Assembly: GCF_900111485.1 (NCBI RefSeq)
Contig: NZ_FOIC01000002.1
Span: forward strand, 186,001 to 250,000
Source: Natrinema hispanicum
GTDB taxonomy: Archaea > Halobacteriota > Halobacteria > Halobacteriales > Natrialbaceae
DNA length: 64,000 nt
Direction: 5' to 3'
Part shown: positions 4,306 through 50,101 of the stretch, in pieces
Numbering within the stretch: position 1 is the first letter of the stretch
Layout: each line of letters begins with the position of its first letter
The notes under the pieces: model-generated
Database searches by the model: none
Told to the model about the DNA's origin: nothing
The model's input: the letters and a program-made list of their open reading frames with translations, nothing else
Program-made: the position numbers and the translations under genes

Positions 4306-4563
4306 GCACGTGAACGACATCGGCACCGATCAGTCAGCTGGTAATCAGGTCGACTCGAGGGAACGCAATCACCGCTGGGACTCGAGTCGCGGCTGCCACG
4401 GAATAATCAAGGGAGCGGTTGTCACGAGCCGTGACGAGGGAGTAGGCGTCACCTACTGGCGGCGGTCCGCTCTGCTGGCAATTGTCGCACTATCGATCGA
4501 TATCGTGCCGACACACCCGAGATCGTCGTCTGCCCGTGCCGAGACAGCGCTGTCACAGCACTC

Positions 4564-5623: not shown

Positions 5624-6883
5624 ATGAGCCAGGAGGGCGAGCAGGAGCAATCCGACCGGAAGAAATACGAGTTCCGGAAGGTTCTCGAGGATCTCAAAGA
5701 CTACGACGGCTCCGGAACGCAGCTCGTGACGATCTACGTTCCAGAGGACAGACAGGTCAGTGACGTCGTCCAGCACGTCACGCAGGAACACAGCGAAGCG
5801 GCCAACATCAAGTCAAAACAGACGCGAACGGCCGTCCAGGACGCACTGACGAGCATCAAGGATCGGCTGCGCTACTACGACACCTACCCGCCGGAAAACG
5901 GCATGGTGCTGTTTTCGGGAGCCGTCGACTCCGGCGGCGGCCGCACCGACATGGTCACGAAGGTCTTGGAGAGTCCACCCCAGCCTGTCGAATCGTTCCG
6001 GTATCACTGCGACTCGGCGTTTCTCACCGAGCCGCTCGAGGAGATGCTCGCCGACAAGGGCCTGTACGGCCTCATCGTCCTCGACCGCCGCGAGGCCAAC
6101 GTCGGCTGGCTGAAGGGCAAACGCATCGAACCGGTCAAGTCTGCGTCCTCGCTCGTCCCCGGTAAGCAGCGCAAAGGTGGCCAGTCCGCCCAGCGATTCG
6201 CCCGCCTGCGCCTCGAGGCCATCGACAACTTCTATCAGGAGGTCGCAGGGATGGCAAACGACCTGTTCGTCCCCAAGCGCCACGAACTCGACGGCATTCT
6301 CGTTGGCGGTCCCTCGCCGACCAAAGACGAGTTCTTAGACGGCGACTACCTCCACCACGAGATTCAGGACAACGTCATCGGCAAGTTCGACGTCGCCTAT
6401 ACTGACGAATCCGGTCTGAAAGACCTCGTCGACAACGCCGAGGACGCCTTGGCCGACGCCGAGGTGATGAAGGACAAACAGCAGATGGAGGAGTTCTTCG
6501 AGGAACTCAACGCTGGCGACCTGGCGACCTACGGCTTCGAGCAGACCCGCCGAAACCTGATGATGGGCGCGGTCGACCGACTGCTGATCAGTGAGGACCT
6601 CCGGAAGGACGTCATCACCTACGAGTGTCCAGAATGTGGCAATACAGATCGCGAAGTGATCGATCGGCGCAAGTCGACGCCCGATCACACCTGTAGCGAG
6701 TGTGGCACCGAGGTCGAGGCGACCGACGAGGATCGCGAGGACGCCATCGACCACCTCATCGAGATCGCCGAACAGCGTGGCACCGAGACGAAGTTCATCT
6801 CGACGGACTTCGAGAAGGGCGAACAGCTCTACAACGCCTTCGGCGGCTTCGCTGGCATTCTGCGATACTCGACCGGCGTGTAA
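5624..6883 (+). CDS. prf1: Peptide chain release factor aRF1
   Basis: 419 residues. The NIKS motif at 61-64 (stop-codon recognition) and the GGQ motif at 185-187 (peptidyl-tRNA hydrolysis) are intact, and the C-terminal domain keeps a CPEC...CSEC zinc module. It terminates translation at all three stop codons, with aRF3/ABCE1-type partners encoded elsewhere. The frame is open upstream to 5498, but the ATG at 5624 has a TATA-like element about 27 bp before it and gives the family-typical N-terminus. Confidence 0.97.
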   Translation: MSQEGEQEQSDRKKYEFRKVLEDLKDYDGSGTQLVTIYVPEDRQVSDVVQHVTQEHSEAANIKSKQTRTAVQDALTSIKDRLRYYDTYPPENGMVLFSGAVDSGGGRTDMVTKVLESPPQPVESFRYHCDSAFLTEPLEEMLADKGLYGLIVLDRREANVGWLKGKRIEPVKSASSLVPGKQRKGGQSAQRFARLRLEAIDNFYQEVAGMANDLFVPKRHELDGILVGGPSPTKDEFLDGDYLHHEIQDNVIGKFDVAYTDESGLKDLVDNAEDALADAEVMKDKQQMEEFFEELNAGDLATYGFEQTRRNLMMGAVDRLLISEDLRKDVITYECPECGNTDREVIDRRKSTPDHTCSECGTEVEATDEDREDAIDHLIEIAEQRGTETKFISTDFEKGEQLYNAFGGFAGILRYSTGV

Positions 6884-8062: not shown

Positions 8063-8080
8063 TTTTAGGTGGGCTTAAAT
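8063..8080 (+). promoter_or_regulatory. Iron-box-like operator 1 (flippase promoter)
   Basis: TTTTAGGTGGGCTTAAAT is an imperfect palindrome of the TTAGG-N4-CCTAA type bound by DtxR/IdeR-family metalloregulators. The right half has one mismatch. Its right end overlaps the TATA element (cttaaata, about 8074-8081), which lies about 27 bp before the ATG at 8104, so bound repressor would block TBP. Confidence 0.6.
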
Positions 8081-8103: not shown

Positions 8104-9234
8104 ATGACCGACGGTGACGAGCAGTCCAATGCTAACAGCCGGGTCGCGTCAGCGCTGACCCGCCGCCGGCTGACGATCGCCGGGACGATACTCGTCGTAG
8201 CCGGGCTGGCCGTTGCCGTCCGTGAAATCGAGCTCCGGACCGTCGTCGCCGAGATTGCGAGTGCCGATCCAGTCGTCCTCGGGGCTGCAGTCGCCGTCTA
8301 CGTCGTCTCGTGGCCGCTTCGTGGGCGACGATACAGTGACGTGCTTGCGGCAATGGAGCAGCGCAGTGACACTGCCGTTGCGACGATCGCCGTCTTCGTC
8401 AGCCAGACGGCCAACCTCGCGATTCCGGCCCGGGCAGGTGATGCGGTGCGTGCGTACGTGATGAACCGCCAGCGGGAGGTGCCCTATGCCGCCGGGTTCG
8501 CCTCGCTGACCGTCGAGCGACTGTTCGACCTGGCGACGATCGCGACGCTCGCGGTGCTCGCGATGGCGTGGCTCGCGGTCGGCGGCGAAACCGGCCCGCT
8601 CGAGGTCGTCACCGAGGCCAGCGGCGCACGGACCGCCCTGCTGGCTGCGGCGGTCGTAAGTACGGCGACCGTCGGCGTTGGTGCCGTCGTCGTCACGTCC
8701 GCACGGGCCGACCACGGGCTCGGCGCGTGGCTCCGCGCGCAGGGACAGAATCGGCCATGGCTCGAAGGCGTCCTCGAGGCCGCGGTCCAATTCGTAGCCG
8801 ACGTGCAAGTTGTCGCCTGCCAGCCACGAGCGCTGGCCACGATCGGGGCCGGGAGTCTGCTGGTGTGGTCGCTCGACGTGCTCACGGCAGTACTGGTTCT
8901 TGGGGCGCTCGACAGCGGGCTCTCGATCGGAGCGTTGCTCTCAGTTGGGACGCTGGCAGTCAGCGTCGGCAATCTCGCGAAGGTGTTGCCGCTCTCGCAG
9001 GGCGGCGTCGGACTCTACGAGGCGGCGTTTACGGCGCTCGTGGTCGGGTTGACGCCCGTCGGCGCGAGCGTAGCCTTGGCTGCTGCGATCGTCGATCACG
9101 CGCTGAAAAACGGCGTGACGCTGCTCGGCGGTGTGGGCGCGGGGGCCTGGCTCGGACTGTCGCTATCGGACGCAACGACACAGCCGGAGGCGACACGAAA
9201 AACCGGTAGTGTTTTAGGCGAGCCTAAAAAATAA
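8104..9234 (+). CDS. UPF0104/LPG-synthase-TM family membrane protein (flippase-like)
   Basis: 376 residues, mostly hydrophobic, with about eight predicted membrane spans. The SQTANLAIPARAGD region and the later LSQGGVGLYEA segment are hallmarks of the UPF0104 family, which includes the membrane half of lysyl-phosphatidylglycerol synthase and the C-terminal half of haloarchaeal AglD. Members are thought to move or help load lipid-linked sugars, but that role is inferred. Its promoter carries an iron box. The last codons contain the iron box of the next gene. Start ATG 8104 fits a leaderless TATA spacing. Confidence 0.85.
   Translation: MTDGDEQSNANSRVASALTRRRLTIAGTILVVAGLAVAVREIELRTVVAEIASADPVVLGAAVAVYVVSWPLRGRRYSDVLAAMEQRSDTAVATIAVFVSQTANLAIPARAGDAVRAYVMNRQREVPYAAGFASLTVERLFDLATIATLAVLAMAWLAVGGETGPLEVVTEASGARTALLAAAVVSTATVGVGAVVVTSARADHGLGAWLRAQGQNRPWLEGVLEAAVQFVADVQVVACQPRALATIGAGSLLVWSLDVLTAVLVLGALDSGLSIGALLSVGTLAVSVGNLAKVLPLSQGGVGLYEAAFTALVVGLTPVGASVALAAAIVDHALKNGVTLLGGVGAGAWLGLSLSDATTQPEATRKTGSVLGEPKK
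9212..9229 (+). promoter_or_regulatory. Iron-box-like operator 2 (RGP-like gene promoter)
   Basis: TTTTAGGCGAGCCTAAAA has perfect 8-bp arms around GA and is the strongest of the five boxes. It ends 12 bp before the ATG at 9242, and its left half is at TATA distance. It lies inside the last codons of the preceding gene. Confidence 0.7.
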
Positions 9235-9241
9235 GCGGGCA

Positions 9242-10423
9242 ATGAGTCAGGACATCTGTGTTATCGTCCCGACGATTCGGGAATACGAGTGCATGCGCTC
9301 GTACTTTGCAAACGCCCGCGAGCACGGCTTCGACCTCTCGCGGCTCCACGTCGTCCTCGTCACCGAGGACTTCTGTGAGACCGACGCGATGGAAGCAATG
9401 CTCGAGGAGGAAGGCGTCTCCGGCGAGGTCTTCGACGGCTCCCGGCGCGAGGAGTGGTACGAGGACCACGGCGTCGCCGAGTACAGCCACGTCGTCCCGG
9501 CGGCGAGCCACGCCGAGACGAGCTTTGGCTTGCTCTACATGTGGGTCCACGACGAGTTCGACTACGGCTTCTTCATCGACGACGACACTCTTCCCCACGA
9601 CGACGAGGACTTCTTCGGCACGCACATGGAGAACCTCGCCTTTGCGGGCGAGATCGAGGAAGTCTCTTCCGACGAGCAGTGGGTCAACGTCCTCTACCAG
9701 AACGCCGACGAGCACGGCCTCTACCCGCGTGGCTACCCCTACTCGGCGATGGACGAGACCGTCGAGACCGACACGGCCGAGATCGACGGCGGGTCGGTCG
9801 TCGCCTCGCAGGGCCTGTGGACCAACGTCCCCGATCTGGATGCCGTTCGCATCCTCATGGATGGCGATCTCGAGGGGCAGGCACAGACTCGCACCACAGC
9901 CGAAGACTTCGGCGACGATTTCGTCGCGGCGCGGGACAACTACCTCACCGTCTGCTCGATGAATCTCGCCTTCCGGCGTGAGGTGATCCCCGCGTTCTAT
10001 CAGCTTCCGATGGACGACAACGAGTGGGACGTCGGCCGGTTCGACGACATCTGGTCGGGCGTTTTCCTCAAGCGCGCCTGTGACGTCCTCGGGACCCGGA
10101 TCTACAACGGTGCGCCGCTGTGTGAGCACAATAAGGCCCCGCGCAGCACCTTCGACGATCTCAATAACGAAGTGCCCGGCCTCGAACTCAACGAACACCT
10201 CTGGCAGGTAATTGACGAGGCAGGTGCAGACGCCGACTCCTACGCCGCCGTCTTCGAGGCAATGGCCCACGAACTGGCCGACGGAGACTGGTCGTCGTAC
10301 AACAACGGTGCGTTCTTCAACTACGTCGGCGAATACATGCTCGAGTGGCTCGAGTGCCTGTCGGCGCTCCGGCCGACGGCCGGGATCGAGACCGACCGCA
10401 CACACGTTGTCGCCGACGATTGA
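9242..10423 (+). CDS. Reversibly glycosylated polypeptide (GT75-like) sugar mutase/transferase
   Basis: 393 residues. The N-terminal ICVIVPTIRE strand and the metal/nucleotide-binding triad D113-D114-D115 in a FIDDDTLP context match the RGP family, annotated in haloarchaea as alpha-1,4-glucan-protein synthase. In plants the family includes UDP-arabinopyranose mutases. A likely role is converting or transferring a nucleotide-activated sugar in the cytoplasm. It starts 7 bp after the flippase-like gene but has its own iron box, so it can be transcribed separately. A plain GT-A glycosyltransferase remains possible. Confidence 0.75.
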   Translation: MSQDICVIVPTIREYECMRSYFANAREHGFDLSRLHVVLVTEDFCETDAMEAMLEEEGVSGEVFDGSRREEWYEDHGVAEYSHVVPAASHAETSFGLLYMWVHDEFDYGFFIDDDTLPHDDEDFFGTHMENLAFAGEIEEVSSDEQWVNVLYQNADEHGLYPRGYPYSAMDETVETDTAEIDGGSVVASQGLWTNVPDLDAVRILMDGDLEGQAQTRTTAEDFGDDFVAARDNYLTVCSMNLAFRREVIPAFYQLPMDDNEWDVGRFDDIWSGVFLKRACDVLGTRIYNGAPLCEHNKAPRSTFDDLNNEVPGLELNEHLWQVIDEAGADADSYAAVFEAMAHELADGDWSSYNNGAFFNYVGEYMLEWLECLSALRPTAGIETDRTHVVADD

Positions 10424-10439: not shown

Positions 10440-10457
10440 ATTTAGGTCGGCCTAAAT
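10440..10457 (+). promoter_or_regulatory. Iron-box-like operator 3 (iron ABC transporter promoter)
   Basis: ATTTAGGTCGGCCTAAAT has perfect 7-bp arms ATTTAGG/CCTAAAT. A TATA element (ctataagg, 10432-10439) abuts it on the left, and the ATG at 10466 follows 8 bp after the box. The box therefore covers the likely transcription start. Confidence 0.7.
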
Positions 10458-10465
10458 TCACCACG

Positions 10466-11632
10466 ATGGACAATAGAGACGATAATGGAAAACGCGTGGT
10501 TTCGCGCCGAAACGCGCTGCGAGCAGGATCTGCATTCGGTGTCGCCTCGCTTGCAGGCTGTTTGGGGATGTTCGACAACCAACAGAACGCCGAGGTACCA
10601 TCGCTGTCGGAGTTCCGGGGCTCGGGCACGTTGGTCGAAGGGCGTTCCGCACCAGGTGGGACGTCCATCGAGGAGCTTCCGGATCTCTCCGGAGACCTCG
10701 CCCTCTATATCGGCGGTGGCGAGGGTGGCATCTACTACGACTTCGTGGAGATGCTCCAGAACATTTACCCCGATTTCACCGTCCACTCAAGCTCCAACTC
10801 GTCATCGTCGCTGGCCCAGACGATCGTCGAGGAGGTCGATGCCGGTGCGACCGAGGCAGACGTGTTCTGGTCGATCGACGCCAGCTCGCTTGGATTCGTC
10901 GCGGACAACGACGCCTACGAACCGCTCTCCGATACAGCGACCGAGCCGGTGGGCAACAGCCAGTTCGTCGGCGACGACAACGCGTGGGCCGGCGTCGCTG
11001 GGCGTGCACGCGCCGTCCCGTACAACACGAAGGAGTTGAGCGCGTCGGACATTCCGTCGACCGTCCAAGAGTTCCCCGAGACCAGTGCCCTGCAGGGAAC
11101 GATGGGCTGGGCACCGACCTACGGCGCGTTCAAATCGTTCGTGACGGCCATGCGGCTAATCGAGGGCGAAGATGCGACCCGCCAGTGGCTCGTCGACATG
11201 CGGGAGGCCGGTACCGAGCGCTACGGGAACGAATTCGCCGTCTCACAGGCGGTCGCCGACGAGGCGCTGACGGCCGGGTTCGCGAACCACTACTACGCGA
11301 TGCGTGTGAAAAACGGACGACCGGACGCGCCCATCGATCTGGCCTTTACCGAAGGCGACGCCGGCGCGCTGATCAACGTCGCCGGTGCGATGAAGGTCAA
11401 GGGGACTTCACGGGGAGAACTGGCTGACAACTTCGTCCGTCACCTGCTCTCCGCGGAGGCACAGGAGTTCTTCGCGACGGTCAGTTTCGCCTACCCGATG
11501 ATCAGCGGCGTCAGTCCAGTCGGCGGGCTGCCAACGATCGACGAACTGAGTCCACCGGACATCGACCTCGCGGAGCTCTCGAACCTGGAACCGACGCTTG
11601 ACCTGATGGACGACGCTGGCGTCTCAGGATGA
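10466..11632 (+). CDS. Ferric-type ABC transporter substrate-binding lipoprotein
   Basis: 388 residues. The N-terminus has a twin-arginine SRRNALRAG signal and a lipobox ending at C32, so it is exported by Tat and lipid-anchored. The mature part has the type II periplasmic-binding fold of FbpA/FutA-like Fe(III)-binding proteins, including LALYIGGGEGGIYYDF near the start. It would capture iron outside the cell and pass it to the permease encoded next, whose start overlaps its stop (ATGA). An iron box covers its promoter. Thiamine or another solute is possible, but the box argues for iron. Confidence 0.85.
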   Translation: MDNRDDNGKRVVSRRNALRAGSAFGVASLAGCLGMFDNQQNAEVPSLSEFRGSGTLVEGRSAPGGTSIEELPDLSGDLALYIGGGEGGIYYDFVEMLQNIYPDFTVHSSSNSSSSLAQTIVEEVDAGATEADVFWSIDASSLGFVADNDAYEPLSDTATEPVGNSQFVGDDNAWAGVAGRARAVPYNTKELSASDIPSTVQEFPETSALQGTMGWAPTYGAFKSFVTAMRLIEGEDATRQWLVDMREAGTERYGNEFAVSQAVADEALTAGFANHYYAMRVKNGRPDAPIDLAFTEGDAGALINVAGAMKVKGTSRGELADNFVRHLLSAEAQEFFATVSFAYPMISGVSPVGGLPTIDELSPPDIDLAELSNLEPTLDLMDDAGVSG

Positions 11633-13242
11633 CGATCCGCGGGTTGGTTGCACGGACTGTCGGGCGCGCAACGGGCGACGACAGCGGCGCAACCGACGTC
11701 GGACTCACCCTGCTTGCTGCGGCCATCGCAGCCGTGCTGGTACTGCCGCTGCTCTGGCTGGCCATCGACGCCGTCGGACTCGGCGGTCAAGCACTCGAGC
11801 TCGCCGTTGCCCCACAGACGCTCGAGGTACTGGTGAGAAGCGTTGCCCTCGTCGCGATCGTCACCGGCGCGAGCGTCCTCGTCGGCGTGCCGCTTGCGGT
11901 GATAACGGTTCAGGGATCGATTCCGTTCCCCCGGTTTTGGACCGTCCTCGCGGCGCTGCCGCTTGCGGTGCCGAGCTATCTCGGTGCGTTCGCGTTCGTG
12001 TCGGCGTTCGGGCCGCAGGGCGAATTCGCCGATCTCCTCGCGCCGCTTGGCATCGAGTCGATCCCGTCAGTGTACGGGTTCGCTGGTGCGGCGTTCGTCC
12101 TGACGCTGTATACGTATCCGTACGTGTTTCTGACGACGCGCGCGTCGCTGCTGTCACTCGATGGCTCGCTCGTAGAGGCGGCACGGACGCTCAACACCGG
12201 CCGCTGGACGGCGTTTCGCCGAGTCACCCTCCCGCAGATCCTTCCGGGGATCACTGCCGGAGCATTACTCGTGGCACTGTACGCCTTTGCGGACTTCGGT
12301 ACGCCCAACATCATGCGCGTCGAGGTGTTCACGCAGTTCATCTATGCCCGGTACAACGCATTCGCCCGTGACTACGCGGCGTTGCTATCGCTGCAGTTAC
12401 TGACGGTGACAGCGATCGTCCTCGCACTCGAGTCACGGATCGGCGTCGACGAGTCGGGAGCGTACGAAAGCAGTGGCCATCGCGGGAGCGCCAACCTCGA
12501 GCTCGGAAGCTGGCGGTACGTGGTGTTGCTGTTGCCGGCCGTCATCGCGTTGCTGGCGATCGTCCTCCCGATCGCGCTGTTCGCGACGTGGCTGACGGGC
12601 GGTGGGCCGGGCTATCAGGGCGGTGGACTGACGTTCAGCTGGGAGTACGGCTTCAATTCGGCGTACGTCGCCGTGCTTGCTGCTGGCGTCTCGATCCTCG
12701 TGGCGCTGCCGATCGCGCTCACATCGGCAACGTCGGATTCGCGGCTGGCGGAACTGGCCGACCGCGCGCCCTATATTGGCTATGCGACGCCCGGGATCGT
12801 ACTGGCGATCGCGTTGCTCAGCTTCAGCCTCGATGTCCTCCCAGCGGTCTACAAGACGGTGCCGTTGCTGGTCTTTGCGTACGTCGTTCGCTTCATGCCC
12901 CAGGCGATCGGTTCGATCAAGACCTCGACGTTGCAGGTCGATCAAGAACTCGTCGAAGCGTCCCGGACGCTGGGGCGGTCACGGCTGGCGACGTTCAGAA
13001 AGGTGACGCTGCCGCTGATCCTGCCGGGTGTGGCAGCAGGGGCTGCACTCGTCTTTCTCACGACGATGAAGGAACTGCCCGCAACGCTGATGCTGCGCCC
13101 GCTTGGCTTCGAGACGCTCGTGACCTACATCTGGGAGATCGAGGAGGCTGGCCTGTACGGACGGGCAGCGGTTCCAGCGCTCGTCTTGGTCGCCATCTCC
13201 GGCCTGTCGATGGCCGTCATGCTCGCACAGGATGGCCGGTGA
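11629..13242 (+). CDS. Ferric-type ABC transporter permease (fused two-domain, FbpB/ThiP type)
   Basis: 537 residues with two homologous membrane halves. Each has an EAA loop that contacts the ATPase: EAARTLNTG...LPQILPG in the first half and EASRTLGRS...LPLILPG in the second. This duplicated layout is typical of FbpB-type iron and ThiP-type thiamine permeases. It is translationally coupled to the binding protein (4-bp overlap). No ATP-binding subunit follows or occurs elsewhere in the window, so the pump must borrow one encoded elsewhere. Confidence 0.9.
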   Translation: MTIRGLVARTVGRATGDDSGATDVGLTLLAAAIAAVLVLPLLWLAIDAVGLGGQALELAVAPQTLEVLVRSVALVAIVTGASVLVGVPLAVITVQGSIPFPRFWTVLAALPLAVPSYLGAFAFVSAFGPQGEFADLLAPLGIESIPSVYGFAGAAFVLTLYTYPYVFLTTRASLLSLDGSLVEAARTLNTGRWTAFRRVTLPQILPGITAGALLVALYAFADFGTPNIMRVEVFTQFIYARYNAFARDYAALLSLQLLTVTAIVLALESRIGVDESGAYESSGHRGSANLELGSWRYVVLLLPAVIALLAIVLPIALFATWLTGGGPGYQGGGLTFSWEYGFNSAYVAVLAAGVSILVALPIALTSATSDSRLAELADRAPYIGYATPGIVLAIALLSFSLDVLPAVYKTVPLLVFAYVVRFMPQAIGSIKTSTLQVDQELVEASRTLGRSRLATFRKVTLPLILPGVAAGAALVFLTTMKELPATLMLRPLGFETLVTYIWEIEEAGLYGRAAVPALVLVAISGLSMAVMLAQDGR

Positions 13243-13263: not shown

Positions 13264-15273
13264 ATGAGACGACGAACATGGCGGGCGGCGGTCGTCGCCG
13301 TTGCACTTGCCGGTGCCCTCGCGGTCTGGCTGCTCGCGACGCGAACGTTTCCGTATCACTCGCTCAATCACGACGAGGGTGTCTATCTCCAGCAGGCAGC
13401 GATGCTGCTCGAGGGGCAACTGTTCATCCGGCCGCCCGTCGAGGAGAGTTTCCGCCCTTGGTTCTTCGTCGACGACGGCGACCGGCTCTATCCGAAGTAT
13501 GCACCCGTCCCTGCGGCCATCTTCGCACTCGGGAAGGTCGCAGGCGGCTACCGACTCGCGCTCGTTGGCGTCGCTGCCGCGACGCTCGCGCTCGTCGCTT
13601 TGATCGTCCGCGAGGTGTTCGACCGGCGAACCGCCATTGTGGCTGCCGTGATCATGCTCTGCTCGCCGCTGTTTGTGATCGAATCGGCCGTCTTCTTGCC
13701 GTACGCGCCGACGACGATGCTCAACCTGGCGTTTGCCTACGGCTATCTCCGGGCCGACCGGACGGGCGACTGGAGATTTGCCGGAGCAGCTGGCGCGGCG
13801 ATCGGCCTGGCCTTTTTCGCGCGGCCGTATACGGCGGTGCTGTTCGCGACGCCGTTTATCGTCCACGCATGCTGGACACTCGTTCGGGAGCCGCGAGTCG
13901 CCTTCCCCAGACAACTCGCAACGGCGGCGTTCGGACTGACAGGCGTCGGGCTTGCATTGGCCTACAACGCAACCGTAACCGGCTCACCGTTGGTGTTTCC
14001 CTACGAGGCGTTTGCACCGCTGGACGGGCTCGGCTTCGGGCAGCGCCGGATCCTCAACCACGAGATCGACTATACGCTCGAGCTGGCGCTGCGTGCGAAC
14101 GCACGAGTACTCGCGCAGTTCGTCACCGACTGGATCACGGGCGGTATTCTCGGCGCGGCAGTGGCCGCCGTCGGGGTCGGCGTCACCATCCGACGCGGGC
14201 TTTCGCCTCGCGAGGCCATCCTCGCCGGGCTGCTCGTCACCGTCCCCGTCGGCAACGTCTACTTCTGGGGCAACTTCAACATCCTCGGAGACCTCGAGCG
14301 CGCCGGTGACGGGCTGATCGCCACCCACGGCCCGTACTACCACTTCGATCTGCTGGTGCCGGTCGCGACCTTTAGTGCCGTCGGCGCGCTGGCGCTGGCC
14401 GCTGGGGCCCGCCGGCTGGCCGACCGGAAACTGACACCGGAGACCGCACGCGTGACGCTCGTCGCGGCGCTGCTCGTGAGCGCGCTCGCGGTTGGCGGCG
14501 TAACGGCGACGACCGTCGACGAGAAACTCGATCGGAACGCGGCCGTGACCGACACCTACGAGGAGGTCTACGCGCCGCTCGAGGATGGCCCGTCCGAGCA
14601 AGCGCTCGTCTTCCTCCCGACGCCGTACGGTGACTGGCTCGCCCATCCGTTCCAGGCGCTTCGCAACGATCCGGACATCGACGGCCAACGGGTGTACGCG
14701 CTCGACGAACAGCCGTTCGCCGTCGTCGACGCGTATCCCGACCGGTCGCTATACAGGCTTGCCTACCGCGGTGCCTGGGCACCGCATGCCAGCTCGCCAC
14801 AGGCGGCCCGGCTCCAGCCAGTCGACCACGTCGCCGGCTCCGCGGTCGCGTTGAACACCACAGTCGGCGTCCCGTCGACAGCCGAGGGGGTCACGATGAC
14901 CGTCACGACTGACGACGACAGCGACACCTACGTTGCCGAGAACGTCTCAGAAGAGATGCCCGTTCGACTGACCGTCACCCCCGAGACCGTGCGTATACAC
15001 GGGGCAGCCTGGGACAGCACCGAGCCGCTTCCCATCGACGACCGAGACGACATCGTCGTGGACGTGTTCGTCGATCAAGGGCCTGGCAGCAGTTTCAGCT
15101 ACCGACTCGAGCTGCCGGTTCGAACGGAAGACGAGACCGTCCGGGCGCTGACGCCCCACGTCGAACGGTGCAGTTCAATCCGTGATTGTGGCGGCGAAGC
15201 GGCGTACATCCCCGATCAGTCCACGGATAGCCTGTTCGTCCGGACTGAACTTTCCGTTCCGGACACGAACTGA
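13264..15273 (+). CDS. GT39-like (GT-C fold) membrane glycosyltransferase
   Basis: 669 residues. The first luminal-loop acidic motif H36-D37-E38 in LNHDEGVYLQQA and about ten to eleven membrane spans place it with dolichol-phosphate-sugar-dependent GT-C enzymes (PMT/ArnT type). These transfer a sugar outside the membrane. A C-terminal extracellular beta-rich domain of about 220 residues has Cys pairs (ERCSSIRDCGG). It starts 22 bp after the iron permease and probably shares its mRNA and iron box. The acceptor is unknown. Confidence 0.8.
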   Translation: MRRRTWRAAVVAVALAGALAVWLLATRTFPYHSLNHDEGVYLQQAAMLLEGQLFIRPPVEESFRPWFFVDDGDRLYPKYAPVPAAIFALGKVAGGYRLALVGVAAATLALVALIVREVFDRRTAIVAAVIMLCSPLFVIESAVFLPYAPTTMLNLAFAYGYLRADRTGDWRFAGAAGAAIGLAFFARPYTAVLFATPFIVHACWTLVREPRVAFPRQLATAAFGLTGVGLALAYNATVTGSPLVFPYEAFAPLDGLGFGQRRILNHEIDYTLELALRANARVLAQFVTDWITGGILGAAVAAVGVGVTIRRGLSPREAILAGLLVTVPVGNVYFWGNFNILGDLERAGDGLIATHGPYYHFDLLVPVATFSAVGALALAAGARRLADRKLTPETARVTLVAALLVSALAVGGVTATTVDEKLDRNAAVTDTYEEVYAPLEDGPSEQALVFLPTPYGDWLAHPFQALRNDPDIDGQRVYALDEQPFAVVDAYPDRSLYRLAYRGAWAPHASSPQAARLQPVDHVAGSAVALNTTVGVPSTAEGVTMTVTTDDDSDTYVAENVSEEMPVRLTVTPETVRIHGAAWDSTEPLPIDDRDDIVVDVFVDQGPGSSFSYRLELPVRTEDETVRALTPHVERCSSIRDCGGEAAYIPDQSTDSLFVRTELSVPDTN

Positions 15274-15432: not shown

Positions 15433-16188
15433 CTACTGTGTCGGCTCGTGAGGGAGCTCGCGGAGCCGTTCCTCGAGCGAGACTTTGATGATCGATCGCG
15501 CGATCTCAGCACCGCCTTTCAGCGGATCCAGCTTCGTCTCGCCAGCACGCTCGCGGTACGCGATCGGGTGTTCGCGAATATCGTAGCCCCGCATCAGTGG
15601 CCGGATCAGGAGTTCGGCCGAGAGGCCGGTGTTTTCCGTCCACTCGATCGACTCGATCACCTCGCGCCGGTAGGCGCGCATCCCAGTCGTCGTGTCGTGG
15701 ACGCGGGTCCCCATCAGGAGGCTCGCGATCGCGGCGAAGGCATGGTTGCCAAAGCGGTTGAACGCCGGCATCGCCTCGGCACCGTGGTAGAGCCGGTCGC
15801 CGCTGACCACGTCGTAGCCTTGGTTGATCAACTCGAGGAACTCCGGTAACTGCTCCATCGGATAGGTGTCGTCGCAGTCGGTCGTGACGACGATCGGTCG
15901 ATCCGGTTCCGTGATGGCCGCATGGACGGCGACGCCGTATCCCTGCGGTTGTTGTTCGATGACCGTTGCGCCGTGCTCGCGGGCGATTTCGGGCGTGCGA
16001 TCGGACGAGCCGTCGACGCAGACGACCTCGGCCTTGCCGTCGGTGACGTCCTCGATGTCCGCGAGTACTTTGCCGATCGCTTCCTCCTCGTTGTAGGTAC
16101 CCATGACGACGCTGACGTCCTCGAAGGTGTATCGGTCGTCGGCGTCGTCGGTTCTCTCCGTCGTCTCGGGCTGCTCCCCGCTACTCAT
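15433..16188 (-). CDS. GT2 glycosyltransferase, dolichol-phosphate sugar synthase type
   Basis: 251 residues. VVMGTYNEEEAIG near the start and the metal-binding DCDDTYP segment are typical of GT-A-fold GT2 enzymes that move mannose or glucose from a nucleotide sugar to dolichol phosphate. There are no C-terminal membrane spans. In haloarchaeal AglD this domain is fused to a UPF0104-type membrane half, and here that half seems to be the separate gene at 8104. A leaderless start at 16188 fits a TATA element (gtataaat) about 27 bp upstream, just downstream of an iron box. Confidence 0.87.
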   Translation of the reverse strand: MSSGEQPETTERTDDADDRYTFEDVSVVMGTYNEEEAIGKVLADIEDVTDGKAEVVCVDGSSDRTPEIAREHGATVIEQQPQGYGVAVHAAITEPDRPIVVTTDCDDTYPMEQLPEFLELINQGYDVVSGDRLYHGAEAMPAFNRFGNHAFAAIASLLMGTRVHDTTTGMRAYRREVIESIEWTENTGLSAELLIRPLMRGYDIREHPIAYRERAGETKLDPLKGGAEIARSIIKVSLEERLRELPHEPTQ

Positions 16189-16219: not shown

Positions 16220-16237
16220 TTTTAGGTTTGCCTAAAA
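16220..16237 (-). promoter_or_regulatory. Iron-box-like operator 4 (GT2 promoter)
   Basis: TTTTAGGTTTGCCTAAAA (plus-strand reading) has perfect 7-bp arms. On the minus strand it lies directly upstream of the TATA element for the GT2 gene, over the BRE/TFB position. The GT2 gene therefore has its own iron-responsive promoter and is not only read through from the dehydrogenase genes. Confidence 0.7.
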
Positions 16238-16252
16238 CACAAAGGTCGGCAG

Positions 16253-17890
16253 TTACAGTCCCTCGAGTATGTGATCTGCGGCTTTCAGCGCCAGCGCCGC
16301 GATCGTCAGCGTCGGATTCATCGCGCCGCCGGTGGGGAAGACGCTACTCGAGGCGATCCAGCAGTTCTCGAGGTCGTGGGTCCGGAGGTCGGGCCCGACG
16401 ACGCTTGCGGCGGGGCCCGAACCCATTCGAGTCGTCCCCATGTGGTGGTAGGCCGGTCCCGTGTTCTCGGGGCCGACCTGCCAGGTGATCTCGGCACCGA
16501 GTTCGTCGAGGATCCGTTCCTGAATCTCGTTGACGCGCTCGATAGTTCGCAGCGCTCTATCGTCGACGTTCCAGTGGACGTCCGGAACCGGATTGCCGTG
16601 ATCGTCGGTCGTCGACGCGTCGAGCCCGACGGAGCTGTCCTCGCGGGGGAGTTGTTCGACGAGGCCACCCATCCCGATGTGAGTGCCGTACTCCGACCGG
16701 AGCCGCGTGAGTAAGTCGTCACCCCAGTCGTCGCCGGTCAGCGCCATCCCCACCGGGGACGGGCCAGCGTAGTTGAAAAACTCGAGTTTGAACGGGGCGT
16801 ACTCCGCATCGGCCTCGTCGTAGAACTGGTGGGACTCGCTCGTGAGAAAGCCGACGTGATTCTGCCGAGTGGGCTCGTCGAGGACGCCGCCCGTGCCGGC
16901 AAACAGGTGATCCATAAAGAAGTTACCGACGAGGCCGCTCGAGTTAGCCAGCCCGTCGGGATAGTGACTCGACTCGGAAAGCAACAGCAGACGCGGCGTC
17001 TCGACGCCGCCACAGGCGATCACGAAGGCGTCGGCTTCCTGTCGGTGTTTCTTGCCGTCAGGTGTCGCGTAGACGGCCGCCTCGATCGCATCGGGGCCGT
17101 GCTCGAGGCGCTGGACCGGTGCGCGGTCGATCACCGTCGCACCCTTTCGCTCAGCGCGCTTGACGTGGACAGTCGCGTCGTACTTCGCACCCGAGGGACA
17201 GACCGGCTGGCAGGTGCCGTAGCCGACACAGGCGTTGCGACCGTCGTAAGCCTCCGAGTTGCGGGCGTTGGGCACTGAGTGCATCGCGATCTCGAGGTCG
17301 TCGCAGGCCTCGGCGAACAGCGAGTCGCTGTAGGACGGCCGAAAGGCAGGCATCGGATGGGGCTCCTCGCGGGGCGGTGCGAACGGGTTGTCGTCGGCTC
17401 CCGCCACGCCGAGTTCGCGCTCCGCGACGGCGTAGTACGGCCGCAGGTCCTGATAGTCGATCGGCCAGTCGGTCCCGACGCCCCGGACGCTGGCCGAATT
17501 GAAGTCAGCCTCGTGGAGCCGCATCACCATCCCCTGCCAGTGGAGCGTCGAGCCGCCGACACCTCTCGCGCGAGCGTGGTTCAGCGGGTAGAACCGCTCC
17601 CCCGAAGACCCGTAAGCATCGCGCTCTGGGTCGCCGTTCCAGACATCCGGCCGATCGTAGGCGGGGCGGATCGCCCGCTCCTGTCTGGCGAGCCTGTCGG
17701 CCGAGTCGAACCGCGGTCCAGCCTCGAGAATTACGACCTCGTGGCCGGCCTCAGCGAGGCGATCAGCGACGAGCCCGCCGGCTGGTCCCGCGCCGATCAC
17801 GCAGATGTCGGCGTCCCCGACGGGAGTGCGGTCAGCGTCCGTCTCAGTCGCCGGCACCGCCGACTCGGCGGGTGGTCGATCCCAACTCAC
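16253..17890 (-). CDS. GMC-family FAD dehydrogenase, glucose/gluconate dehydrogenase type
   Basis: 545 residues. The FAD-binding motif VIGAGPAGG begins at about 31, and the C-terminal part has HMGTTRMG and SVFPTGGAMNPT, where GMC enzymes carry catalytic His and FAD contacts. Three cysteines, C221, C227 and C231, have the C-x5-C-x3-C spacing of the 3Fe-4S site described in the Burkholderia FAD-dependent glucose dehydrogenase. It should oxidise a sugar or sugar acid and pass electrons out through the cluster. Its start overlaps the stop of the small Tat subunit gene by 4 bp. No cytochrome c subunit gene is present. Confidence 0.88.
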   Translation of the reverse strand: MSWDRPPAESAVPATETDADRTPVGDADICVIGAGPAGGLVADRLAEAGHEVVILEAGPRFDSADRLARQERAIRPAYDRPDVWNGDPERDAYGSSGERFYPLNHARARGVGGSTLHWQGMVMRLHEADFNSASVRGVGTDWPIDYQDLRPYYAVAERELGVAGADDNPFAPPREEPHPMPAFRPSYSDSLFAEACDDLEIAMHSVPNARNSEAYDGRNACVGYGTCQPVCPSGAKYDATVHVKRAERKGATVIDRAPVQRLEHGPDAIEAAVYATPDGKKHRQEADAFVIACGGVETPRLLLLSESSHYPDGLANSSGLVGNFFMDHLFAGTGGVLDEPTRQNHVGFLTSESHQFYDEADAEYAPFKLEFFNYAGPSPVGMALTGDDWGDDLLTRLRSEYGTHIGMGGLVEQLPREDSSVGLDASTTDDHGNPVPDVHWNVDDRALRTIERVNEIQERILDELGAEITWQVGPENTGPAYHHMGTTRMGSGPAASVVGPDLRTHDLENCWIASSSVFPTGGAMNPTLTIAALALKAADHILEGL

Positions 17891-18405
17891 GCGCTCGGCC
17901 CCCGCTGATAGCTCGCGAGCCCGCCGGGGTGTCCCTGCGGATTCTCGATGCCGACCAATTCCCCACCCGTCGGCGAGGCATACAGCGCCAGCAAGAGATC
18001 GTTGACGACATAGTAGCGGACCCGTTCGCTTGCCGTTCCGGTTGGGTCCTCATCGGCGGTGTCCACATCGAGATTCCGAAGGACCTGCTCGCGATCAGTC
18101 ACCGACAGCGCCACAAACGGCTCGTCGTACCAGAACGTCGCGTTGTCATCCAGCTCCGTGACCGCCTCATCCAGACCGGCGACGTGTGTCGGGTCCTCGA
18201 GTCGGCCCTCGAGGAACGTCTCGACGAACGTCGCCGTGCCGGAGACCTCGCTCGGGTAGACGACGTCAGCGGCTGCGACCAGCGTCTCACGGAGCCGATC
18301 GACGTCGACCGGCTCGGATCCGGGCGGGGCCACACAGCCCGACAGCGTCCCACCGACGCCGAGTGCAGCCAGCGCGGCAACCGCGTCTCGCCTGGTCAGC
18401 TTCAT
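17887..18405 (-). CDS. Gluconate 2-dehydrogenase subunit 3 family protein (Tat-exported small subunit)
   Basis: 172 residues with a twin-arginine signal (R5-R6) and lipobox-like SGC at C24. In bacterial membrane sugar dehydrogenases this small subunit carries the folded FAD subunit across the membrane through Tat. It is the first gene of the operon and is coupled to the GMC gene by ATGA. An iron box lies between the TATA element (aatatatgg, about 18431-18438) and the ATG. The pair is likely an extracytoplasmic sugar-oxidising complex anchored to the membrane. Confidence 0.85.
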   Translation of the reverse strand: MKLTRRDAVAALAALGVGGTLSGCVAPPGSEPVDVDRLRETLVAAADVVYPSEVSGTATFVETFLEGRLEDPTHVAGLDEAVTELDDNATFWYDEPFVALSVTDREQVLRNLDVDTADEDPTGTASERVRYYVVNDLLLALYASPTGGELVGIENPQGHPGGLASYQRGPSA

Positions 18406-18412
18406 TGGAGAG

Positions 18413-18430
18413 GATTAGGTAAGCCTAAAC
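18413..18430 (-). promoter_or_regulatory. Iron-box-like operator 5 (dehydrogenase operon promoter)
   Basis: GATTAGGTAAGCCTAAAC keeps the core TTAGG-N4-CCTAA. On the minus strand it lies just after the TATA element and before the start codon at 18405, so it overlaps the expected transcription start of the dehydrogenase operon. Confidence 0.65.
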
Positions 18431-18500
18431 CATATATTCGTTGGAACGGAACGGTCGTTGCCGACGGAACGCGTCCCGTCACGAACCGCGACGGCGTCGG

Positions 18501-49693: not shown

Positions 49694-50101
49694 ATGGCCG
49701 AGTGTGCACGGTGTAGTGCGTTCACCGACAATCATGCAAAGGGAGACTATCCATACTGTGACGATTGCCACGATCGATTCGAGAACGTTCGGGAGAGCGG
49801 CGTGATCGTACGGCAAATTCCTGATTCGGGGGAGTATCAAATCGACGTGACTACCAGTACGGGACGGAATCAGGGTGGAACGGAGAAAACACAAGTCGAT
49901 GCACTTGCGCGCGGGAAGCACTTAGCCGACAAATATGGCCTCGAGGCGCTGTTCGAATACCAGCGAAGCGGTTCACAGTGGATGCTCGACGAATACCTGC
50001 AGGCCCATCCCAAGATCAGACAGGACGTCCGAGAGCGACTGCGTCGCACGCCGGAGAAGACAGACGGTGGCTTCGTGAAACGACTTCGAAACTTGTTCTG
50101 A
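49694..50101 (+). CDS. Small zinc-motif protein next to the tRNA
   Basis: 135 residues. Two Cys pairs, C4-x2-C7 and C22-x2-C25, form a likely zinc knuckle in the first 30 residues. A basic C-terminus (RRTPEKTDGG...KRLRNLF) follows. Upstream DNA is A/T-rich with a TATA-like gcttatttt about 27 bp before the ATG. No family is recognised, but its position between a tRNA footprint and an origin suggests an accessory element gene. Confidence 0.65.
   Translation: MAECARCSAFTDNHAKGDYPYCDDCHDRFENVRESGVIVRQIPDSGEYQIDVTTSTGRNQGGTEKTQVDALARGKHLADKYGLEALFEYQRSGSQWMLDEYLQAHPKIRQDVRERLRRTPEKTDGGFVKRLRNLF

Follow-up and report, generated by a model that had tools for sequence, protein, structure and literature searches.

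In the flavin adenine dinucleotide (FAD)-dependent glucose dehydrogenase of Burkholderia cepacia (BcGDH), Cys212, Cys218 and Cys222 are the ligands of a 3Fe-4S cluster, His105 is the FAD-linked residue, and His476 and Asn519 form the catalytic pair (PMC6719666). A GMC-family enzyme of Collimonas has small, large and cytochrome subunits; it makes gluconic acid that weathers minerals, and when Fe and Mg are left out of the medium the level of its small subunit goes up (PMC12542777). Such an enzyme can therefore serve metal mobilization. We have analyzed a related gene pair, SUB3-GMC, which occupies positions 16253 to 18405 of a 64,000-nucleotide stretch of the genome of the haloarchaeon Natrinema hispanicum (the window). 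SUB3-GMC very probably encodes an exported, iron-box-controlled sugar dehydrogenase of the Fe-S type, set within a ferric-acquisition module. The enzyme family, the export signal on SUB3, the box and the module are established at the level of sequence.

An initial annotation of this DNA had described an FAD sugar dehydrogenase with a probable 3Fe-4S site, in an iron-starvation-type operon that lacks the cytochrome subunit. As an observation it is confirmed as a whole: the open reading frames (ORFs) of GMC and of its twin-arginine translocation (Tat) partner, their coordinates and their frames are right. Its interpretation is partly supported.

The SUB3-GMC enzyme

The features of the unit are as follows.

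16253..17890, minus strand: GMC-family FAD sugar dehydrogenase, catalytic subunit (545 aa, GTG start; Pfam GMC_oxred_N/C)
17887..18405, minus strand: SUB3, a Tat-signalled (lipobox) small or hitchhiker subunit, PF13618 (172 aa)
18415..18428: iron box TTAGGTAAGCCTAA, belonging to the SUB3-GMC promoter and 23 nt away from the ATG
18432..18437, minus strand: TATA-like ATATAT just upstream of the box, with transcription to the minus side and the same geometry in relatives

The two reading frames share 4 nt, GTGA, and a 4-nt overlap is found in 74 of 79 haloarchaeal loci. The initial annotation was right about the Tat signal and the coupling, and wrong only in giving the shared letters as ATGA. Similarly, the box of its proposed operon stands (18415-18428) and the single operon does not: SUB3-GMC forms a unit of two genes that has a box to itself, and this unit is one of four boxed transcription units clustered here.

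The GMC protein scores over the Pfam cut-offs for GMC_oxred_N/C, and its closest named relatives are those of Natrinema and Haloterrigena, with identity up to 96%. In a phmmer search against the PDB its best matches are the Burkholderia FAD-glucose dehydrogenase entries 6A2U and 8HDD (full-length, E 1.9e-88), with Gluconobacter fructose dehydrogenase second (E about 3e-74), both well ahead of the remaining GMC enzymes. The C-x5-C-x3-C spacing of C221, C227 and C231 noticed initially is present, and the three residues align without gaps with the cluster cysteines of BcGDH; the comparison then drawn with the Burkholderia enzyme agrees with the published ligands (PMC6719666). By the same alignment H117 is the equivalent of His105, and H483 and N525 are those of His476 and Asn519. 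All of these residues are invariant in 81 of 81 haloarchaeal GMC sequences. Because 162 of the 545 positions are invariant across that set, invariance alone is modest evidence, and it is the position of the site and the kinship of the protein that carry the cluster claim. When seven cysteines were placed randomly in 545 residues, the spacing arose anywhere in 0.07% of trials, and the motif is kept in 16 of 17 more divergent GMC relatives (51-71% identity). We regard C221, C227 and C231 as a probable 3Fe-4S site.

An AlphaFold model of the GMC protein is nearest to fructose and glucose dehydrogenases in Foldseek (TM about 0.8). VIA gave Z of 34-40 against these enzymes, with a root-mean-square deviation of 3.3-3.5 over about 500 residues, whereas other GMC proteins reached a Z of no more than about 30. 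Sequence and structure matches together bear out the proposed kinship to Fe-S FAD sugar dehydrogenases. The residue at the position of BcGDH Asn475, proposed as a sugar contact in that enzyme, is H482 by alignment, and the substrate therefore cannot be transferred from BcGDH. A 51%-identical relative on the DL31 plasmid CP002989.1 (L112:8004-9686; L, C and G numbers are our labels for loci, contigs and genomes) has C-x5-C-x2-C and lies without an iron box.

SUB3 of this species begins with a Tat signal and lipobox (MKLTRRDA...LSGC), and RR lies close to the N-terminus in 77 of 80 relatives. The protein matches PF13618 (gluconate 2-dehydrogenase subunit 3) with 36.5 bits against a cut-off of 23.4, and so do the aligned relatives (32/32), a kinship that the initial annotation did not mention. 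A conserved stretch at its C-terminus, GGELVGIENPQGHPGG, is reminiscent of the hydrophobic loop with which the C-terminus of the BcGDH gamma subunit touches the cluster region. Homology of SUB3 to that subunit was considered and set aside for want of a match: phmmer, profile and Foldseek searches gave none in the PDB, although a loose match could escape them. The Cys213-Cys152 disulphide of BcGDH has no counterpart either; GMC has V222, and mature SUB3 is without cysteine. At three Halosimplex-like loci (L080, L138 and L139) GMC comes immediately after the box, with no SUB3 beside it. PF13618 genes occur elsewhere in two Halosimplex-type genomes, in G275 beside the dolichyl-phosphate (Dol-P) hexose transferase gene. 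The PF13618 model overlooks a clear SUB3 in G086, and true loss of SUB3 in Halosimplex-type genomes is not concluded.

Iron boxes and the linked module

Boxes of the form TTAGGYNNRCCTAA resemble the sites bound by bacterial DtxR/IdeR proteins. Those of the locus beyond the SUB3-GMC promoter, with the neighboring genes, are the following.

16222..16235: iron box TTAGGTTTGCCTAA, upstream of the Dol-P hexose transferase gene
15433..16188, minus strand: Dol-P hexose transferase (NF041391, over the curated cut-off)
13264..15273, plus strand: GT39/PMT_2-like membrane glycosyltransferase with DUF7846
11629..13242, plus strand: iron ABC transporter permease with two BPD domains, SfuB/FbpB-like (so named in relatives)
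10466..11632, plus strand: FbpA/HitA-type ferric-iron-binding protein (7w3w_A, E 3.1e-43, YY pair aligned)
10442..10455: iron box TTAGGTCGGCCTAA, upstream of the ferric-binding protein gene
9242..10423, plus strand: RGP-family protein, PF03214 (reversibly glycosylated polypeptide / 'alpha-1 4-glucan-protein synthase')
9214..9227: iron box TTAGGCGAGCCTAA, upstream of the RGP gene
8104..9234, plus strand: LPG_synthase_TM/UPF0104-type membrane protein, a possible lipid-sugar flippase and tentative module member
8065..8078: one-mismatch iron box TTAGGTGGGCTTAA, just before the LPG_synthase_TM/UPF0104 gene

There are 16 perfect boxes in the 3.96 Mb genome, four of them in this locus (at 9214, 10442, 16222 and 18415), whereas about 0.3 are expected from base composition and a reversed-pattern control gave none in the genome. 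Taken with the conservation in relatives, these numbers lead us to reject a chance origin. Conservation was counted as perfect TTAGG-N4-CCTAA among 80 named haloarchaeal loci. On this basis the box is present upstream of SUB3 in 75 of 78 relatives; the corresponding counts are 71/76 for the Dol-P hexose transferase, 43/48 for the ferric-binding protein gene and 23/23 for RGP. As controls, stretches of the same length within SUB3 never came to 2 or fewer mismatches from the box, and the SRAP and threonine deaminase neighbors outside the module lack a box even when 1 mismatch is allowed. The box of SUB3 promoters starts 21-25 nt before the ATG, directly after the TATA-like element, a position at which binding of a repressor would prevent a leaderless start. 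We also picked 12 further genomes for divergence or relocation of the pair. In 11 of these, including those with a relocated pair, a perfect box immediately precedes the pair or, at the three Halosimplex-like loci, GMC alone; in the twelfth (L147) SUB3-GMC follows boxed importer genes that share its strand. The iron box before the pair, asserted in the initial annotation, is therefore upheld here and in most of the haloarchaea compared.

Elsewhere in the genome, perfect boxes stand on C74 before a siderophore-type FecCD transporter, which has two binding proteins, and before a DUF5059-halocyanin lipoprotein, and on C53 before an orphan ABC ATPase of the TOBE type; the box set therefore has the character of an iron regulon. 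Two clear DtxR-family regulator genes are present in this genome, and in Haloferax volcanii the ferR regulon signal lies before fhu operons (PMC11349517). The boxes thus appear to mark a DtxR/IdeR-type regulon, with putative iron-dependent repression. The remaining perfect boxes (G000) are at L104:7735 and 7771 (in tandem, C49), L106:6359, L107:7079 and L108:7649; DUF7551/DUF7552 proteins, a methyltransferase or DUF7090 protein, and a ferritin-like gene lie near them.

The neighborhood was surveyed within 6 kb of GMC in the 80 loci. SUB3 is linked in 79/80, the Dol-P hexose transferase in 76/80, the permease in 74/80, GT39/PMT in 65/80, the ferric-binding protein in 58/80 and RGP in 48/80, the last of these genes often being cut off by the locus ends. 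Salarchaeum pJOR178 carries eight consecutive, co-directional genes, namely those of RGP, binding protein, permease, ATPase, GT39, SUB3, GMC and hexose transferase. Four of them, RGP, binding protein, SUB3 and the transferase, are preceded by boxes, and it is these four that have boxes in the window too. Halobaculum plasmids carry a similar run. The permease gene lies between those of the binding protein and GT39 in the clade of the window; in most other haloarchaea (L002-L081) it divergently adjoins SUB3, with a common boxed intergenic region. A SUB3-GMC pair 61% identical to this one is found on Halarchaeum plasmid NZ_CP054708.1 (L111:11438-13587) without an iron box, surrounded by arabinofuranosidase, a sugar ABC transporter, Gfo6 xylose dehydrogenase and a GntP permease. 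It offers a natural control and a substrate lead.

The ferric-binding protein matches 7w3w, FbpA, HitA and SfuA, and the paired tyrosine ligands of the FbpA type align as YY with 7w3w. No importer ATPase was recognized between the importer genes at this locus; one is present in the Salarchaeum locus. The boxed orphan TOBE-domain ATPase on C53 (L105:3351-4550, minus strand, box at 4558) is probably the missing ATPase of this importer. Another UPF0104 protein, HVO_1859 of H. volcanii, is up 11.6-fold in iron starvation (PMC11349517).

GMC matches of any strength occur in 252 of 292 Halobacteria genomes. Counting strong GMC matches (E below 1e-100; 226/292) and hexose transferases over the curated cut-off (232/292), 224 genomes have both, two GMC only, eight the transferase only and 58 neither, so that only 10 of the 292 are discordant. 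The co-occurrence has a Fisher P of about 1e-49 and phi of 0.90, a P value that is overstated because species are not independent. RGP is present in 226 of 284 genomes, including all eight with the transferase only, and is absent from the two with GMC only. The Dol-P hexose transferase, GT39-like and RGP genes, which did not figure in the initial annotation, share both the regulation and the phyletic distribution of SUB3-GMC. In several genomes GMC lies tens to hundreds of kilobases from the other module genes. Block inheritance as the sole cause was rejected on these grounds: GMC is far from the transferase or RGP in G086, G275 and G058, yet both are kept, and linkage alone therefore cannot explain the co-inheritance.

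Possible roles for extracellular sugar oxidation

The switch shared with a ferric importer and sugar-attaching enzymes suggests extracellular sugar oxidation to obtain iron. An FAD and a 3Fe-4S cofactor, Tat co-export and DtxR-type repression are all predicted by homology. Sequence and comparison place a DtxR/IdeR-type palindrome between the TATA element and the start of SUB3-GMC, with the same box before the FbpA-type, RGP and transferase genes. When iron is plentiful a DtxR-type repressor would sit on the boxes, and in starvation the units would be transcribed together. GMC would fold with FAD and cluster in the cytoplasm, be exported by the Tat signal of SUB3 and stay bound to SUB3 at the cell surface, as its homologues lead one to expect. 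Outside, its substrate would be a sugar unit, most likely a product of the Dol-P hexose/GT39/RGP pathway of the module, and oxidation would create keto, lactone or carboxylate groups that could bind or solubilize Fe(III) near FbpA. FbpA would then pass Fe(III) to FbpB and an ATPase. The 3Fe-4S cluster would hand on the electrons singly to an acceptor, either soluble or in the membrane, other than a dedicated cytochrome c subunit.

The initial suggestion that the product helps to gain iron fits this context, because the neighbors encode an FbpA-type ferric-binding protein and a permease. That sugar oxidation by SUB3-GMC gives Fe(III)-binding groups for the ferric importer is the reading we tentatively prefer, although it falls somewhat short of probable. 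A more specific form, in which a dolichyl-phosphate glycoconjugate built in starvation is oxidized outside by the Fe-S dehydrogenase, captures Fe(III) and feeds the FbpA-type importer, would make it an enzyme-activated glycan siderophore; this we consider doubtful.

Several points weigh against the preferred reading. Linkage and co-regulation do not prove that the oxidized sugar contacts iron, and an Fe-S enzyme costs iron during starvation. The 61%-identical Halarchaeum pair lies in a sugar cluster without an iron box, and the enzyme type therefore appears also to serve plain sugar catabolism. The eight transferase-only genomes hold glycosyl genes without the dehydrogenase, and the co-occurrence statistics ignore shared ancestry. 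The AlphaFold model is of moderate quality (pLDDT, its per-residue confidence, of 69, and under 50 in the cluster loop), and no expression data were found for this species.

The enzyme might instead oxidize extracellular free aldoses to aldonic acids, which would free iron by being acidic and by chelating Fe(III), with the glycosyl genes serving a separate purpose. The closest characterized homologues do use free glucose and fructose (PMC6719666), Collimonas GMC provides a precedent, and the Halarchaeum relative stands beside a sugar ABC transporter, Gfo6 xylose dehydrogenase and GntP permease. Yet this leaves the near-perfect co-inheritance and co-regulation with the Dol-P hexose transferase and RGP unexplained, and with H482 in place of the sugar-contacting Asn475 the substrate may differ. 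We think it unlikely, while giving it some weight. Iron regulons generally also take in metabolic and surface genes, and SUB3-GMC could be co-regulated without handling iron, the dehydrogenase and glycosyl genes remodeling the surface layer or feeding the respiratory chain in starvation. RGP, Dol-P hexose and GT39 proteins are surface glycosylation families, and the Halarchaeum relative looks catabolic. Against this, the linkage to the ferric importer recurs after rearrangement, the permease adjoining SUB3 in most relatives and lying elsewhere here, and we judge a role apart from iron to be rather improbable.

The electron acceptor bears on a further alternative. No acidic CXXCH ORF that could be a linked cytochrome c was found in the 80 loci with up to 6 kb of flanks, so that the initial statement that no cytochrome c gene is present holds for linked genes; the genome has one unlinked di-CXXCH protein (C49:77566). 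The sole CXXCH ORF in the window (49694-50101) is zinc-finger-like. In a bacterial relative, from Pantoea, a cytochrome c gene is next to the dehydrogenase. A halocyanin, the acceptor initially put forward, is not upheld as a general rule. No halocyanin gene was recognized in the SUB3-GMC cluster, and of the four cupredoxins in the genome one is boxed. The family of this sole iron-boxed halocyanin, DUF5059-halocyanin, occurs in 28 of 106 haloarchaeal genomes sampled, far fewer than carry the dehydrogenase, and therefore cannot be the general acceptor. The boxed protein itself (C74; L103:6625-9099, box at 6606) is a large Tat/lipobox lipoprotein with DUF5059 and a C-terminal halocyanin domain, adjoining the FecCD transporter with its two boxed binding proteins, and is perhaps an iron-linked cupredoxin.

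An extracellular ferric reductase, using the sugar as electron donor only and passing electrons from a surface 3Fe-4S cluster to Fe(III) chelates with no need of a cytochrome subunit, would fit the missing linked cytochrome, the want of a universal boxed cupredoxin partner, the iron boxes throughout the module and the surface position of the cluster in BcGDH (PMC6719666), but is distinctly improbable, as the importer linked to it belongs to the FbpA type, which binds Fe(III), and is not an Fe(II) carrier, and as acceptors are often encoded apart from the dehydrogenase, so that absence nearby is weak evidence.

Comparison with known systems

It is counter-intuitive that most haloarchaea should keep a sugar dehydrogenase with a probable Fe-S cofactor behind an iron-starvation box. 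The link of this enzyme to a ferric importer and dolichol-linked glycosylation leads to our preferred reading, a specific and testable idea of how archaea gain iron in brines, and the enzyme would also be a case of a 3Fe-4S sugar dehydrogenase working without the usual cytochrome. Full-text literature searches gave no paper on haloarchaea and such a GMC protein, nor was the conserved combination found in the literature searched; the regulon study of Leyn and Rodionov (2015), outside it, may list parts.

The haloarchaeal pair resembles B. cepacia FAD-glucose dehydrogenase (6A2U, 8GRJ) in the GMC fold, the C-x5-C-x3-C motif, the FAD-linked histidine, the His/Asn pair and the small Tat hitchhiker subunit. 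It differs in being archaeal and under iron-box control, in having no linked triheme cytochrome c, and in its small subunit, a PF13618 protein with no gamma-chain match by sequence or Foldseek and no cysteine for an inter-subunit disulphide. Gluconobacter fructose dehydrogenase (7W2J, 8K6J) is the enzyme that the model matches most closely in structure (VIA Z about 40) and has the same motif region, but identity is 32% and its heme c subunit is missing at the haloarchaeal locus. With gluconate 2-dehydrogenase the pair shares the subunit 3 family of SUB3 (PF13618, 32/32), but no cytochrome subunit is linked to SUB3-GMC. The Collimonas GMC oxidoreductase similarly has small and large subunits, and parts of its description tell of a product, gluconic acid and protons, that mobilizes metals; unlike SUB3-GMC it is bacterial and has a cytochrome subunit, and those parts report no boxed ferric-importer and glycosylation module. 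The importer corresponds to the FbpABC, SfuABC and HitABC systems in its FbpA-like binding protein, double-domain permease and palindromic TTAGG-N4-CCTAA boxes. It departs from them in that its ATPase is probably encoded elsewhere in the genome and in its co-regulation with a Dol-P hexose transferase, RGP and a sugar dehydrogenase. Each part is of a known kind, and it is their conserved combination that would be new.

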